Shown one piece after another: positions 20,043-32,359 of a stretch of DNA of 32,716 nucleotides. The notes below the pieces were generated by a model, which was not told where the DNA came from, ran no database searches, and worked only from the letters and a program-made list of their open reading frames with translations. Source of the DNA: Atribacterota bacterium (GTDB taxonomy: Bacteria; Atribacterota; Phoenicimicrobiia; Phoenicimicrobiales; Stramentimicrobiaceae); contig JAQUNC010000027.1 of the NCBI GenBank assembly GCA_028717805.1, positions 1 through 32,716 on the forward strand, written 5' to 3'. Both the position numbers and the translations under genes were made by a program. Positions within the stretch are counted from its first letter, which is position 1, and every line of letters begins with the position of its first letter.

Positions 20043-20885
20043 TTAATTTACTGAATCATCATTGTAAGATTGAGGCAATAACTCTCCTTGAGCAATCATT
20101 TTTACTTCGCCAGTCAATGAAATATTTTTAATTACATTTTTATCTCTAATAAAATAAACTCCCAAACAACCACCTTTTGTTCTAACAATAAAAGGTGGTT
20201 GTCTATCCTTATCCAATGAGTATACAAGGGCACTGGATAAGGACCCAGTTCCGCACGATAAAGTAATTTCTTCTACTCCTCTTTCATATGTTCTCACAAA
20301 TAAGTTTCTTTCGTTCTCAATCTGAACAAAATTCACATTTACACCTTCAGGAAAATGTTCTTTATCAAATCTGATTTTTCTACCCAGGCTAAAAAGATAT
20401 TCATCCGATAAGTCTTCTCCAAAAAAAATCACACAATGGGGCACTCCTAAAAAAAGATAAGTATAAATAAAATCTTTACCATCAATGGTAATGGGTTTAT
20501 TCCTTATTATTTTCTCAACATTAACATCAGGCAATGTAACCTCAACATATTGATCTCTAACGTTTGCACATATTTTACCGGCAAGCGTTTCAAAAACAAT
20601 TTCCTTATTTGCTATTCCTTCTAAAAAAGCATATTTGGCAATACATCTCGCGCCATTTCCACACATTTCACCTTCTGTGCCATCAGAATTGAACAATCTC
20701 ATTTTAAAATCATATTGCAAAGAATTTTCCAATAATAGAAGGCCATCAGCACCTAAGGATTCCTTTCTTTTGCATATTTTATTTGCCAAGTCACTAATAT
20801 CTTTTTCAGGTATTATTTTCTTACGATTATCAATAACTATAAAGTCGTTTCCACAACCATTCATTTTTATAAAATGTATTCCCAT
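20043..20885 (-). CDS. dapF: Diaminopimelate epimerase
   Basis: A PLP-independent epimerase that interconverts LL- and meso-diaminopimelate for peptidoglycan and lysine synthesis. At 280 residues it is standard length. Both catalytic cysteines are present: C75 in EMCGNGARC and C211 in LSCGTGS. The N-terminal KMNGCGNDF and the internal FEMPEG-like segment (here HFPEGVNVNF) also fit. The ATG has AAGGGG close upstream. It lies 131 bp downstream of the diaminopimelate-dehydrogenase-like gene. The pair could cooperate around meso-DAP, or DapF could be acting on another diamino acid in the neighbouring gene set. The first reading is the conservative one. Confidence 0.95.
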   Translation of the reverse strand: MGIHFIKMNGCGNDFIVIDNRKKIIPEKDISDLANKICKRKESLGADGLLLLENSLQYDFKMRLFNSDGTEGEMCGNGARCIAKYAFLEGIANKEIVFETLAGKICANVRDQYVEVTLPDVNVEKIIRNKPITIDGKDFIYTYLFLGVPHCVIFFGEDLSDEYLFSLGRKIRFDKEHFPEGVNVNFVQIENERNLFVRTYERGVEEITLSCGTGSLSSALVYSLDKDRQPPFIVRTKGGCLGVYFIRDKNVIKNISLTGEVKMIAQGELLPQSYNDDSVN

Positions 20886-21016
20886 TTTCCCCTTAGGTTA
20901 AGCTTATTACTTGACCTTTACCATAAATATTTTACTTAATCCTTAAAATAATAAACAGATGATTTCTGGGCATAATAACAATTAAAGAACAATAAAATAA
21001 ATTTAGTTTTTATTCC

Positions 21017-21925
21017 CTATATTAGTCGTGACAATATCTCTTCTTTTTTTCCATAAAGAAAGTCTAGAAGTGGAATTTCCAATATACTATAACAGCCGGG
21101 TTTTTGCTTCAGACTTGCTCTTGCTGCTGAAACCATTACTTGCCCTGTTACCGCTGGATTATTGACTGATACGGTGTATTGCATTCTTTGATTATGAGTT
21201 TTACCTGAAACTCCTTTTCTTTCTATCTTAACTGAATGACCCATATCGATTAGATCTCTTATATTATCTGATTTAAAAACATACACTTCATCATGAATGA
21301 AATATGGATCATTCTTTATCTTATTTGAAATACTTTCCAAATCATATCCTTTTTTCGGCTTAACATATACCAGCCGCTGATGCATACCTACATTCTTGGG
21401 AATAGTTAACGAGATGGCATCATCTACTCCCTCAATAGCTTTAACAGCAACTGTATGCCCCATACTCATGCCAGGACCATAATTTATATAGGTAATACCC
21501 TTAGGAGTATTAATTTCTAAAACAGCCCTTATAATAGAATCGCTTCCGGGATCCCAACCTGCTGAAATAATGGAGACGGCACTATATTTTCTTGCCACTT
21601 TGCCTAAGTCTTCTCGTAGTTGCATAAGGGATTCTCCATGAATATCAAAAGCATCTACCGTATTGATACCTTGTTGTAGGTATATGGGAGCAATTTCAGG
21701 TACTTTTCTACTATCAATTGATAGAATTGCCACATCTACTTTACCTAATTCTGTAATATCATTATCTATAATTGGTATATTTTTAATCTCTTCTTTGATT
21801 GTTTTAATAATATGCGGCAATTCAATTATTCCGACTACTTCCATATCTGGACTCTCTTGTAGAGCATCCAGAACTCCTCTTCCTACATGACCAAATCCTA
21901 CTATGATTACTTTGAATTTATACAA
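21017..21925 (-). CDS. ddh: meso-Diaminopimelate D-dehydrogenase-like oxidoreductase
   Basis: An NADP-type Rossmann enzyme. The nucleotide loop is VIIVGFGHVGRG near the N-terminus. Substrate-domain signatures of DAP dehydrogenase follow: SAGWDPGSDSIIR and NYGPGMSMGHTVA. These enzymes reversibly deaminate the D-centre of meso-DAP; some (type II) accept other D-amino acids. An upstream GTG at 21982 would add 19 hydrophobic residues, but AGGAGG lies 7 nt before TTG at 21923-21925, so I choose that start. It gives about 302 residues, normal for the family. It follows the desulfhydrase-like gene directly, in the liv-linked operon. It may provide meso-DAP or serve amino-acid catabolism. Relatives such as 2,4-diaminopentanoate dehydrogenase cannot be fully excluded. 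Confidence 0.82.
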   Translation of the reverse strand: MYKFKVIIVGFGHVGRGVLDALQESPDMEVVGIIELPHIIKTIKEEIKNIPIIDNDITELGKVDVAILSIDSRKVPEIAPIYLQQGINTVDAFDIHGESLMQLREDLGKVARKYSAVSIISAGWDPGSDSIIRAVLEINTPKGITYINYGPGMSMGHTVAVKAIEGVDDAISLTIPKNVGMHQRLVYVKPKKGYDLESISNKIKNDPYFIHDEVYVFKSDNIRDLIDMGHSVKIERKGVSGKTHNQRMQYTVSVNNPAVTGQVMVSAARASLKQKPGCYSILEIPLLDFLYGKKEEILSRLI

Positions 21926-21981
21926 TTTAATTCCTCCTGCTACATAATTTAGAATTATAATCAATAGAATTTTTATTCTCA

Positions 21982-23001
21982 CTATGAAAATATTTTATTA
22001 TATGCAAAATTTGCAATTTCTCCACCAGTATGAAGAAACACTATATTTTCATTTTTCTTAAATTTACCTTTTTTAATTAAATCAATCAATCCGGCCATTG
22101 CTTTTCCGGTATAAACAGGATCAAGTATTACCCCTTCAGCTTGAGCTACAGTATGTATTGCCTGGATGCCCTCTTTTGTTGGAATAGCATAACCTTCTCC
22201 AATATAATCATCATTCACTTCTATTTCATCAGGATAAAATTGTCTGCATGCTAATCCTGGTGCAAAATCTTGTATAGTTTTGTTGCATAACTCAGCAATT
22301 TCTTGAGATTTTGGTTTTATATGTCGACTGATACTAATCCCAAAACATCTGGTATGCATTCTATATAGTCTTAATCCTAATTCTATTCCCACCTGAGTAC
22401 CACCAGTTCCGACTGCTGTAATAATATAATCGATATGAATACCACCTTCTTCAGTTTGTTGCTTTAATTCTTTGACCGCATTGATATAGCCCAGGTTCCC
22501 CATTGGATTACAACCACCTAAAGGTATAATATATGGAATTTTGCCATTCCTTCTTACCTCTTCTGCTATTTCACCCGTAATTGGTGTCTCTCCTGTTTCT
22601 TCTTTCTGTTCATCCTCATCAGAATAAGGTTTAAATCTTATATCACAACCTAAGATGGAATCTAAAAGTAAGTTACCTTGATATTCTCCCGGTTCATTTC
22701 CATTAAGCACCAAAATAACCCCCAATCCCAGTTTTTTAGCAGCCGCAGCAGTTTGCCTTGCCCAATTAGATTGAAGTCCTCCAATGGTGACAATGGTGTC
22801 TGCTTTTTTTTCTAACATATCAGCAATAATATATTCAAGCTTTCTTGCCTTGTTACCTCCAAAGGCAAGCCCAGTACAATTATCTCTTTTAATATATATA
22901 TTAGGTCCTTTGAGCATTTCAGTAAGATTTTTAGCAAGTTCTAATGGAGTTGGCAGGATAGCTAATGGAATTCTTTTATATTTTTTTATGAAATCCATCA
23001 T
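21982..23001 (-). CDS. dcyD: D-cysteine desulfhydrase / ACC deaminase family PLP enzyme
   Basis: A 339-residue fold-type II PLP enzyme. The Schiff-base lysine is K51 in FGGNKARKLEY, and GGLQSNWARQTAAAA (74-88) carries the phosphate and substrate loop with S78. GTGGTQ at 199-204 cups the cofactor phosphate. In true ACC deaminases two active-site positions are Glu and Leu; here the matching positions are T298 (DPVYTGK) and T325 (FLHTGG). That favours a D-cysteine-desulfhydrase-like activity over ACC deaminase. A related beta-elimination of another D-amino acid is also possible. The start has GGAGGAG upstream. It sits 29 bp after livF and directly before the DAP-dehydrogenase-like gene, so it is probably co-transcribed with the importer. 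Substrate is inferred, not proven. Confidence 0.83.
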   Translation of the reverse strand: MMDFIKKYKRIPLAILPTPLELAKNLTEMLKGPNIYIKRDNCTGLAFGGNKARKLEYIIADMLEKKADTIVTIGGLQSNWARQTAAAAKKLGLGVILVLNGNEPGEYQGNLLLDSILGCDIRFKPYSDEDEQKEETGETPITGEIAEEVRRNGKIPYIIPLGGCNPMGNLGYINAVKELKQQTEEGGIHIDYIITAVGTGGTQVGIELGLRLYRMHTRCFGISISRHIKPKSQEIAELCNKTIQDFAPGLACRQFYPDEIEVNDDYIGEGYAIPTKEGIQAIHTVAQAEGVILDPVYTGKAMAGLIDLIKKGKFKKNENIVFLHTGGEIANFAYNKIFS

Positions 23002-29108: not shown

Positions 29109-30221
29109 TCATTTATTAATATTTAAAAATTTTTTTATAACGATTACCAATTCGGGGCTTTCTTCTCCCATAATATTTATTATGGGAAGAGCTAATCTAT
29201 TTCTCATTTTCTGATATAACTGGTATCCATCTATCCAAGCCATTTCATAACTGTCTTTTCCAAATCTGCTATATTTTGGATAAAAGGGATTAATGGTAAC
29301 TGCTAAAATTGGTAAATTATAAAGTGTCTTGATTTTGATTCCCTTGTTTAATATATCCTCAATTATATCCATAAGATGGTTAATATCTCGGGTACCGACT
29401 AACAGAAAAGTAGGATTATTAACAAGGATTGTCTTTCCTTTAAACAATTCAGAGTATTGCTCAGATATTTTTTTTAATATATTATCCTGAAAAATACCTG
29501 GAATATATATTTCTTCTGTTTCTTTTTCATCAATACTATCAATTAAATTGCTAAGCGTTTTTTGACTAATCAAAGAATGGCTTTTCAGCTGTCTTTTATA
29601 TCCATTTTTCTGGAAAATGACAATATTATTATGATGCTGTATTATTTCTTGATTAGAAATCTTTTGTTTCTCCCTCAGTGGTATATTAAATGCTCTTATT
29701 ATACTTTCTGTTTCATCTACAAGTAAATCAATATCAGTTTGACGAGAGGCTCCGGTTGCTAAGATTAATGCATCACAATTAATCAATGGTATCATTCGGT
29801 TTAATGCCCCGTCAACCAGAATAAGTTGGCTTTTTTCTTTCTTCAATTTTTGCAGGATGCAAAGAAGATCTTTACCTTTATTTGGACCTGCTAATATAAC
29901 TAATCCTCCTTGTAATACTTTCCCTATTAGCACTTGTCCCAGGGATGTTTTAACTGATGTTTTTTCAACTATTTCAATTTTCGCCTCAGAAACAGAAAAG
30001 CATTGTTTAGCAGTTCCTACCAGGTCCCCTTGTTTAACATAAATACGGGGTTTGGGTAATCCGGTAATATTATCTATATCCTCTCCATCATAACCAATAC
30101 TGGTTAAACCTACTTTAATTCCTTCTTTATTTGACCATTCTAATAAATAGCTCGCAGTTGTAGTTTTTCCAGTATTTTTAGCAGTGCCCAGTATTCCAAT
30201 TACTTTACTATTAATCTCCAT
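29109..30221 (-). CDS. P-loop NTPase, possible aminomutase reactivating factor (KamB-like)
   Basis: A 370-residue protein. The P-loop GTAKNTGKTT (12-21) has the same spacing as in dethiobiotin-synthetase-like SIMIBI ATPases, and a Walker B-like LILVDGALNR lies at 133-142. A motif SIGYDGEDID (41-50) could hold the metal-binding acidic residues. The rest, from about 185, is not recognised. It starts 11 bp after the aminomutase stop, so the two are made together. Cobalamin aminomutases and mutases commonly travel with ATP- or GTP-dependent reactivases. From memory, KamB of the lysine 5,6-aminomutase cluster has a similar GxAKNxGKT loop, which I cannot verify here. Its usual MutS-like partner KamC is not in the window. 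The NTPase call is firm, the role tentative. Confidence 0.6.
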   Translation of the reverse strand: MEINSKVIGILGTAKNTGKTTTASYLLEWSNKEGIKVGLTSIGYDGEDIDNITGLPKPRIYVKQGDLVGTAKQCFSVSEAKIEIVEKTSVKTSLGQVLIGKVLQGGLVILAGPNKGKDLLCILQKLKKEKSQLILVDGALNRMIPLINCDALILATGASRQTDIDLLVDETESIIRAFNIPLREKQKISNQEIIQHHNNIVIFQKNGYKRQLKSHSLISQKTLSNLIDSIDEKETEEIYIPGIFQDNILKKISEQYSELFKGKTILVNNPTFLLVGTRDINHLMDIIEDILNKGIKIKTLYNLPILAVTINPFYPKYSRFGKDSYEMAWIDGYQLYQKMRNRLALPIINIMGEESPELVIVIKKFLNINK

Positions 30222-30232
30222 ATACTATTTCT

Positions 30233-32083
30233 CTATCTCTCAATTAAGGTATTTCTTCCAGCACGACCAGGGTAAGCTCCATCCTGAGGGCTACCCAACA
30301 ATCCTTCATAAAGAGCATTAATAAAACTGCCTCTTTTAGCAACTTTTTCTAGAGTTGCTTGTATTCCTTTTGTAATCTCCTTCTCATATTCTTTTGCTTT
30401 ACTGGTCGGCTTCATTTCTGCTTTTCCTAAGAAACGAAATACTTCCTGTACAGCTCTTAAAGTATCGATCCTGGAAGAGAGAGAAATTGGCCCTCTAGAA
30501 TAGGCTTCATCCGCAGAAGCTATGGTAATAGCATTCACCTTGAGAGAAATAGCGAGAGCAGCATGCAAAGCAGTAGTTAAAGAGGATTGGATTCTGTCTT
30601 CAGAATGAGTCATAAAACCAATTGGCTCCCCAGGCCAAATTGGGGCATCAATAATGGAACGTAAGCTGTTAATCTTGGCCACATTATAGTCAATATAATT
30701 ATCATCCATTTTACCAGTAATCATAACATCAGGTGAATAACAAAAGAGGGGTTTTAATATTGGCTGAGCCTTTAATTTCAAAGCTAAATCAGCAATAATT
30801 AATAAACCAGCAAATGATTTATATGCTGGAACACCCCCTAACTCTTCATTGGTCGGCTCATCAAAAGGCATCTTATATTTTGCCGCATATTTTATTGCTT
30901 CAAGACCATCAATAGTCAATCTTGCGGGATCAGTGCCACCATTTAATGAACCATATACTATATGAATTTTGGTTAAATCTGCACCTAATTTGCCAGCTAT
31001 GACAGCTGTTTCTGGTGTATTTAATCCACGATGAGCCCTAACTGTCCAGATTGTTTCTTTATGAAGTGAAGATTTTATTTTTGCTAAATTTTCCCAGGTA
31101 ATAATGGAACCATCCTCTTCGTGAGATAGTACTCCTTCCAATAGTCCTTCGGTACGCGCACCCCATGAAGGATCAAAATGAAATACTCCATCTGCTCCCC
31201 AGGCTTCACTAGTTTTAATATGAGCAATATCCATAATAGGACAACCTGTTCCATACTGTACAAATACAAGAGGTAAAGACTGCGTATGCCTCATTTTTTT
31301 AAAATTAGTGTTTTCTTTTTGTTTTTGTATATAAATATCAAGCTTGTTTATTTCTTCTGGAGATAATAATCGAACTTTATCAGGCAATAATCCCTGTTGA
31401 TAGAATCGACTAATTTTATCATCACAATAGGAGAGATAATTTTCTTTTAAAACTTTAATTTTCCGCGCTTTATCCTCATCAGTAAGGACATCGTCTTTAT
31501 AAACATTGATCATTTTTCCCCTTAATTTTGCTCTTTCAATTCCAGGGCTGCTTTTCCTCTGACTCCATTGAATAATTTCATCTGTTATTTCATTTAATAG
31601 GCCTCTGATTCTATTATTCTTATATTGATAAGTATGACTGGCAGGAATGGATATCTTTTTTCTGAATAACTTTTCCTTTTCTCTTTGAAACTCTCTATCC
31701 TCAATATAAGCTATTATCTCTTCAAAATCTGTTCCTGCCCCAAATCCTTTATCAAAACCTAATTCAGAAGCTAATTGTGGAGTGATTGCCTTTCCTCCTA
31801 ACACTACTTTGGCTTTATCTCTGATCTTAGCCGCTTCTGCCATATCAATAAATTTACCTAATAATTCTGCTACTCCATAACCCAGTGTTCTGCTTACCAA
31901 AACATAATTTGCATCAACATCACTTGCCCGATCAATAATTTCTTCTAAGGGTAAATCAGGGGGCAATAAAACAGTATAGTGGCCTCTTTCTTTTAATTTT
32001 CTATTTAAAATCTTTAAAGCAACATCATGAACTGGGTCCAGTGGAATTAGTAATATTTTTCTTTTATTAATACTATTATTCAT
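30233..32083 (-). CDS. Cobalamin/PLP-dependent aminomutase, permuted OraE/KamDE type
   Basis: A 616-residue protein. Residues 7-130 are a B12-binding Rossmann domain of the KamE/OraE type: DPVHDVA (16-22) in place of DxHxxG, then YVLVSRTLG, VVLGGKAI and GFGAGTDFEEI. The PLP lysine, which in KamE lies 13 residues after the motif Asp, corresponds to K29. Residues 140-260 are a helical linker. Residues 265-555 look like the TIM barrel of KamD/OraE: VFVQYGTGCPIMDI, FHFDPSWGARTEG with GA(T/R)TEG conserved, and TALHAALAISLKVNAITIAS. Known OraE has the barrel first and the Rossmann domain last; lysine 5,6-aminomutase has them on two chains. The order here is reversed. Enzymes of this class move a terminal amino group of lysine or ornithine. 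The substrate is unknown. Confidence 0.82.
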   Translation of the reverse strand: MNNSINKRKILLIPLDPVHDVALKILNRKLKERGHYTVLLPPDLPLEEIIDRASDVDANYVLVSRTLGYGVAELLGKFIDMAEAAKIRDKAKVVLGGKAITPQLASELGFDKGFGAGTDFEEIIAYIEDREFQREKEKLFRKKISIPASHTYQYKNNRIRGLLNEITDEIIQWSQRKSSPGIERAKLRGKMINVYKDDVLTDEDKARKIKVLKENYLSYCDDKISRFYQQGLLPDKVRLLSPEEINKLDIYIQKQKENTNFKKMRHTQSLPLVFVQYGTGCPIMDIAHIKTSEAWGADGVFHFDPSWGARTEGLLEGVLSHEEDGSIITWENLAKIKSSLHKETIWTVRAHRGLNTPETAVIAGKLGADLTKIHIVYGSLNGGTDPARLTIDGLEAIKYAAKYKMPFDEPTNEELGGVPAYKSFAGLLIIADLALKLKAQPILKPLFCYSPDVMITGKMDDNYIDYNVAKINSLRSIIDAPIWPGEPIGFMTHSEDRIQSSLTTALHAALAISLKVNAITIASADEAYSRGPISLSSRIDTLRAVQEVFRFLGKAEMKPTSKAKEYEKEITKGIQATLEKVAKRGSFINALYEGLLGSPQDGAYPGRAGRNTLIER

Positions 32084-32110: not shown

Positions 32111-32359
32111 TTATTTATACAAATTTAACCACCCGTAAGCATCTCCGGGTTTATATATATTAGCTCTTATTCTGATACGAACTCCGGAACCTAAAAATTC
32201 AATAAACACTATATCTTTATCTCTGAATCCCAATTTCTCCATTATTGCCAGTCCTATCCTTTTTCCTTCTTCTTCGCTTTGGCAAGCAATAAAAGTTTCA
32301 ATATCCAGGGAATCTACAATCCTATTTAAAGTTTCAGACTCCTCTTTCATATGCTTCAC
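32111..32359 (-). CDS. Small protein, possible stand-alone aminomutase dimerisation domain
   Basis: A protein of 79-82 residues. The upstream GTG at 32359 overlaps the ribosome site, so the ATG at 32350, with AAGGTG 8 nt before it, is the likelier start. The sequence is alpha/beta: a helix EEGKRIGLAIMEKLGF, then strands DIVFIEFLG and VRIRIRANI. This pattern of AAKQIALKMG-like helix, acidic turn and two strands resembles the N-terminal dimerisation segment of KamE (OAM_dimer) that normally comes just before the Rossmann domain. It lies 27 bp before the aminomutase gene. It does not look like OraS. A separate small subunit completing the split enzyme is the best reading, but the similarity is weak and judged by eye. 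Confidence 0.5.
   Translation of the reverse strand: MKHMKEESETLNRIVDSLDIETFIACQSEEEGKRIGLAIMEKLGFRDKDIVFIEFLGSGVRIRIRANIYKPGDAYGWLNLYK

Follow-up and report, generated by a model that had tools for sequence, protein, structure and literature searches.

The adenosylcobalamin radical enzymes known so far are of few kinds, and for the aminomutases the vitamin B6 cofactor (PLP) is regarded as essential to moving the amino group. The systems closest to the locus described here are lysine 5,6-aminomutase (KamDE) and D-ornithine 4,5-aminomutase (OraSE). KamE and OraE hold PLP through a lysine that follows the cobalt-ligating histidine by eleven residues (His+11: Lys144 and Lys629, respectively; PMC3958899). 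In KamD, Tyr236 and Ser238 of the motif NYCSG contact PLP, and the KamD contacts considered below are those listed in the same paper (PMC3958899). Glu338 of OraE aids cleavage of the Co-C bond (PMC4413051).

The window, i.e. the whole stretch of DNA that was analysed (32,716 nucleotides from an Atribacterota bacterium), carries a fused mutase gene between a small upstream gene and a reactivase gene, as follows:

30233-32083, minus strand: 616-aa fused mutase open reading frame (B12 Rossmann domain, OraS/KamD-N-like helical segment, KamD-type barrel)
31679-32083, minus strand: residues 1-135, cobalamin-binding Rossmann domain, KamE type (Pfam PF02310, E 7.9e-10; hhalign KamE 99.5%)
31289-31678, minus strand: residues 136-265, helical segment like OraS or the KamD N-terminus, with the motif SSPGIERAKLR (hhalign OraS 93.4%)
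30236-31288, minus strand: residues 266-616, TIM-barrel domain, KamD type (Foldseek KamD E 1e-16, OraE 1e-10; hhalign KamD 82.8%, MutE 0.2%)
32111-32359, minus strand: 82-aa small subunit, corresponding to the KamE N-terminal / OraE dimerisation domain but encoded as a chain of its own
29109-30221, minus strand: KamB, lysine 5,6-aminomutase reactivase family (NF052386, 252.5 bits, cut-off 210)

Simple searches with Pfam, NCBIfam and PDB sequences recognised only the B12 domain. The Pfam match covered residues 18-122, above the cut-off, and the scan of the 616-aa protein gave no other domain. The best NCBIfam match (residues 44-131) was KamE NF052385 (E 6e-14, well under the equivalog cut-off), and PDB searches with a single sequence or a small profile linked the Rossmann part to KamE and OraE, with no significant match outside it. 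The barrel had no significant match in these searches, and profiles and structure were therefore needed for any claim about it.

Comparison profiles were prepared from KamD, KamE, OraE, OraS and MutE sequences gathered from genomes and were aligned with hhalign. The Rossmann part scored 98.2% with OraE, next to the value for KamE, and 0.4% with MutE; the middle helical segment matched OraS; and residues 136-616 (the C-terminal 475 columns) matched KamD over 396 columns, with 11% for OraE. A structure was predicted with AlphaFold2 from 39 sequences without cofactors (pLDDT 86, pTM 0.80) and compared with the PDB using Foldseek. KamD chains ranked top (E 1e-16 to 2e-15), followed by OraE, IcmF (5e-10) and glutamate mutase MutE (6.5e-9).

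These rankings weigh on the reading in which the barrel is of MutE type and the protein a standard carbon-skeleton mutase whose subunits have been rearranged, which is highly improbable. The active site of glutamate mutase is arginine-rich, as the strand-3 motif described below recalls, the barrel fold is common to both (hence MutE in the Foldseek list), and Pfam Met_asp_mut_E matched the window protein with E 0.12, below the cut-off. Yet the profile values for MutE were 0.2-0.4% against 82.8% for KamD, both KamD and OraE outrank MutE in structure, and OraS/KamE-type parts make up the helical segment and the small subunit. MutE family membership is already disfavoured; a carbon-skeleton shift could nonetheless be the reaction. 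The first-pass annotation had assigned the barrel to KamD/OraE, with another barrel family, for example a glutamate-mutase or pyruvate-carboxylase type, as the alternative; its assignment is upheld by profile and structure, although the barrel signatures it cited gave no KamD/OraE match in simple sequence searches.

Homologs of the mutase were found in Atribacteria (84-85% identity) and in one Clostridiaceae genome (57%). Of 299 relatives of the latter genome, 36 carry a homolog, about one in eight of the Clostridia relatives sampled, and homologs also occur in four additional families belonging to unrelated groups (the distant lineages). The family is conserved: Clostridia and Atribacteria account for 43 loci, and the four distant lineages come on top of these. 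Viral contigs and plasmids contained no relative. In the tree, the Atribacteria copies formed one clade nested among the other copies, which suggests horizontal transfer; two long branches leave the exact placement unsure. Two mutase loci each were present in five genomes (G061, G099, G106, G144 and G185), the paired copies often belonging to different clades and operons, and such duplicates may act on different substrates.

The profile matches and the Foldseek ranking support both a KamE/KamD origin and the following chain order: KamE core, OraS/KamD-N helices and KamD barrel, with the KamE N-terminal domain as a separate chain. The Rossmann-first order is no accident of assembly, since it is kept in 43/43 aligned homologous loci, and mis-assembly or chance fusion was ruled out on this ground. 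The single chain with Rossmann domain first and barrel last, as annotated at first pass, was thus confirmed. The accompanying proposal of a fused KamE-KamD, E then D, gained support from profiles and structure and is refined in two respects: OraS/KamD-N-like helices lie between the domains, and the KamE N-terminal domain is the 82-aa upstream protein. The other wording offered, a circular permutation of OraE, fits less well: permuting OraE would yield neither the helical segment nor the split small chain. The layout had been put forward as one without a known description, and none was found for the family among the open-licence papers searched.

The 82-aa open reading frame is located 27 bp upstream of the mutase, and its product matched the KamE N-terminal domain (hhalign 81%). 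When the model of this protein (pLDDT 87) was compared using Foldseek, the four best of 350,542 PDB chains were OraE and the beta subunit of lysine 5,6-aminomutase (LAM) also ranked high; the shortness of the domain kept E-values modest (0.006-0.2), and the compact alignments with OraE and LAM beta gave 1.1-1.6 Å over 51-54 residues. Clustering placed a homolog ahead of the mutase in 32 loci and translation in 7 more; one also precedes the mutase in each of the four distant lineages.

The KamB gene adjoins the mutase on the other side, 11 bp downstream. KamB was present in 18/18 mutase genomes tested, and 17 of these 18 lack genes for both KamD and OraE; in those 17, KamB is therefore not for lysine or ornithine aminomutase and must serve the mutase or another unknown enzyme. 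A mutual exclusion of the mutase and KamD/OraE, seen in a smaller sample (0/17), was dropped: among the 299 genomes, 12 of the 36 with the mutase also have KamD or OraE.

The residues and motifs bearing on the two cofactors are the following:

32027-32029, minus strand: His19, predicted cobalt ligand in LDPVHD, invariant in 39/39 aligned members
30506-30508, minus strand: Glu526, invariant and aligned with OraE Glu338 (alignment; PMC4413051)
32012-32014, minus strand: Lys24 (His+5); no other lysine is invariant in the helix that follows His19 (alignment)
31145-31174, minus strand: residues 304-313, DPSWGARTEG, in place of the KamD/OraE PLP-phosphate loop RxxGQS
31025-31039, minus strand: residues 349-353, RAHRG, in the position of KamD NYCSG where barrel strand 3 ends

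In the cobalt-ligand motif LDPVHD (window 32027-32038), Asp lies three, not two, residues ahead of His. This D-x-x-H spacing is invariant in the family, against the usual D-x-H-x-x-G, and is an unusual oddity among B12-binding domains. The B12-binding signatures cited earlier for this protein accordingly hold for a KamE-type Rossmann domain but not for the usual cobalt motif. Judged from the alignment, with His19 and Glu526 both invariant, the radical machinery is retained in the family.

It is very unlikely that the protein is no mutase and instead a B12 sensor or corrinoid methyltransferase in which corrinoid-binding domain and TIM barrel happen to be combined. The Rossmann domain does also resemble methyltransferase corrinoid proteins, and the Foldseek list includes dihydropteroate-synthase barrels at low ranks. 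The best matches of the two halves, however, are KamE and KamD; a KamE-type dimerisation subunit and KamB belong to adenosylcobalamin radical enzymes; and the invariant glutamate aligned to OraE Glu338 likewise argues against it.

Lysine at His+11 was found in 8/8 KamE and 5/5 OraE sequences and in 0/39 aligned family members, each of which has Leu, Met or Ile there; the helix after His19 is shorter, of canonical B12-domain length. RxxGQS is missing at the barrel site, and the family's two GQS strings are at other positions. The barrel residues were equated by a remote profile alignment (about 22% identity, hhalign 83%) in which the phosphate-loop and strand-3 equivalences may be off by a few residues: Tyr236 and Ser238 of KamD align to Ala350 and Arg352, Arg268 is lost, and Tyr263, which stacks on PLP, is kept as Tyr377. 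Among 9 KamD sequences, Arg184, Gln188, Ser189, Tyr236, Ser238 and Arg268 are invariant and Gly187 occurs in 7/9; in the same profile alignment, all seven residues are replaced or deleted in the family. As far as the aligned residues tell, the PLP site is lost throughout the family. The name 'aminomutase' used at first pass is doubtful, the PLP lysine and most PLP contacts of KamDE/OraSE being absent throughout, and it was withheld because the two PLP features that define these enzymes were tested and not found.

A true PLP- and adenosylcobalamin-dependent aminomutase, with PLP on Lys24 of the Rossmann domain or on Lys372 or Lys422 of the barrel and its phosphate held by other residues, is unlikely. 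Kinship with KamD/OraE and the kept Tyr263 equivalent would fit it, as would the invariance of Lys24, Lys372 and Lys422 in the family and the diaminopimelate/diaminopentanoate-type dehydrogenase encoded beside the mutase in the distant operon L156, as in the ornithine pathway. Against it, the family lacks the PLP-phosphate loop and has other residues in place of Lys144/629, Ser238, Tyr236 and Arg268; a lysine at His+5, the position of Lys24, also occurs in PLP-free mutases, e.g. methylmalonyl-CoA and glutamate mutase. The protein is read here as an adenosylcobalamin radical mutase that is PLP-independent or anchors PLP differently; we infer both the PLP independence and the radical chemistry.

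The commonest neighbours over the 43 loci were a PLP fold-type-I enzyme of ~487 aa (35 loci) and an FCD-type regulator (31), followed by DUF6917 (23), a GidA-like flavoprotein (23), RidA (14) and a transporter (14). The PLP fold-type-I enzyme was found in 36/36 mutase genomes, which make up 36 of its 37 genomes in the 299 examined (P 9e-46 if genomes were independent, which the 299 sampled genomes are not), and, within 61 Atribacteria and relatives, in exactly the four mutase genomes. Possible partners in the window's own genome are:

G000:C17:5439-6902: PLP fold-type-I enzyme (locus L131)
20043-20885, minus strand: second DapF-type epimerase of the genome, possible pathway partner (TIGR00652, 229 bits)
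21017-21982, minus strand: diaminopimelate-dehydrogenase family protein, possible pathway partner (TIGR01921, 262 bits, cut-off 180.6)

The family of the PLP fold-type-I enzyme is uncharacterised: no close Pfam or NCBIfam family was found, and its best matches, all weak, were sulfhydrylases, selenocysteine-synthase-like proteins and cysteine desulfurases. DUF6917 recurs in the mutase/PLP-enzyme operons (L004:3373-3813, L131:8128-8613, L157 and L159), and no mention of it was found among the open-licence papers searched. The conserved operon transporter family (~463 aa; L004:976-2367 and homologs) has almost no Pfam match, with one weak citrate-transporter match and otherwise no informative family. 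A second DapA-type aldolase gene (L131:7218-8174) adjoins that of the PLP enzyme, and another DapA is encoded in a lysine-biosynthesis run of the same contig. No Rfam element, cobalamin riboswitches included, reached threshold within the window.

The second DapF and the diaminopimelate-dehydrogenase-family protein are encoded in one run (window 20043-23001) with a D-cysteine desulfhydrase/D-cysteate sulfo-lyase-like protein, and this run adjoins a branched-chain amino acid ABC transporter. Genes like these two occur in the window, in the same-genus relative L003 and beside the mutase in the distant L156; at other loci, Asp/Glu-racemase-like and FAD dehydrogenase genes are nearby. The proximity of racemase, epimerase and dehydrogenase genes suggests an acidic or diamino-dicarboxylic amino acid, and our guess for the substrate is an acidic amino acid, possibly diaminopimelate-like. 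A diaminopimelate pathway is a hint only, the link between mutase and dehydrogenase being loose, because the diaminopimelate-type dehydrogenase is present in close relatives without the mutase and absent from two mutase genomes.

We consider it rather probable that the locus encodes a two-chain, PLP-independent adenosylcobalamin radical enzyme of lysine 5,6-/ornithine 4,5-aminomutase stock whose domains have been re-sorted, with a predicted chemistry as follows. The 82-aa chain would provide the dimerisation domain and the 616-aa chain the B12 domain, helical segment and TIM barrel, while KamB would exchange damaged cobalamin. Base-off/His-on adenosylcobalamin, bound via His19, would be brought over the barrel, and Glu526-assisted Co-C cleavage would yield a 5'-deoxyadenosyl radical that takes hydrogen from the substrate. 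The substrate would be held directly, not as a PLP imine, by an Arg/His/Lys/Glu-rich pocket, whose residues (Arg310, Arg349, His351, Arg352, Lys372, Arg388, Glu414 and others) are invariant and lie around the barrel strand ends in the model. The substrate radical may then rearrange, either by elimination (ammonia) or by a 1,2-shift in which a carbon or an amino group moves, and the product would pass to the co-occurring PLP fold-type-I enzyme.

A substrate or reaction different from those of KamDE/OraSE is likely, the chemistry in these anaerobic bacteria probably differing because the PLP site is apparently absent. We lean slightly towards a PLP-independent lineage inside the KamD/OraE stock, i.e. 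a widespread two-chain adenosylcobalamin enzyme with a new acidic-amino-acid reaction, in an undescribed anaerobic pathway where the PLP fold-type-I protein is obligatory. If true, a relative that keeps the radical machinery without the PLP site would show how the fold works PLP-free, and it would point to a degradation pathway not yet known, in Clostridia relatives and Atribacteria. The family is conserved and its partners are fixed.

Compared with known systems, glutamate mutase (MutE/MutS) is likewise a TIM-barrel adenosylcobalamin mutase, PLP-independent and acting on an acidic amino acid, whereas its barrel has no profile similarity to the mutase, its two chains are separate and it is reactivated by GlmL, not KamB. 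The B12-domain-first order is already known among adenosylcobalamin mutases from IcmF (isobutyryl-CoA mutase fused), in which the B12 domain likewise precedes the catalytic barrel on a single chain; IcmF, however, has a G-protein domain between the two, acts on CoA esters and belongs to another mutase lineage. In the window protein, no G-protein domain lies between B12 domain and barrel, only the about 130 residues of OraS-like helices. OraSE (PDB 3kow, 3kp1) has the same domain set, with OraS-like helices and the Glu338 equivalent kept, but OraE is one chain of barrel, dimerisation domain and Rossmann domain, with OraS separate, and it keeps PLP lysine 629 and RTAGQS. KamDE (PDB 1xrs, 8t0v, 9q1a) with KamB resembles the mutase in the barrel and helical N-terminus (KamD), the B12 domain (KamE), the dimerisation domain and the KamB reactivase. 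The mutase differs from KamDE in being one chain, KamE core then KamD, with the KamE N-domain as a separate 82-aa protein, in lacking the PLP lysine, the phosphate loop and most PLP contacts, and in carrying D-x-x-H in place of D-x-H.
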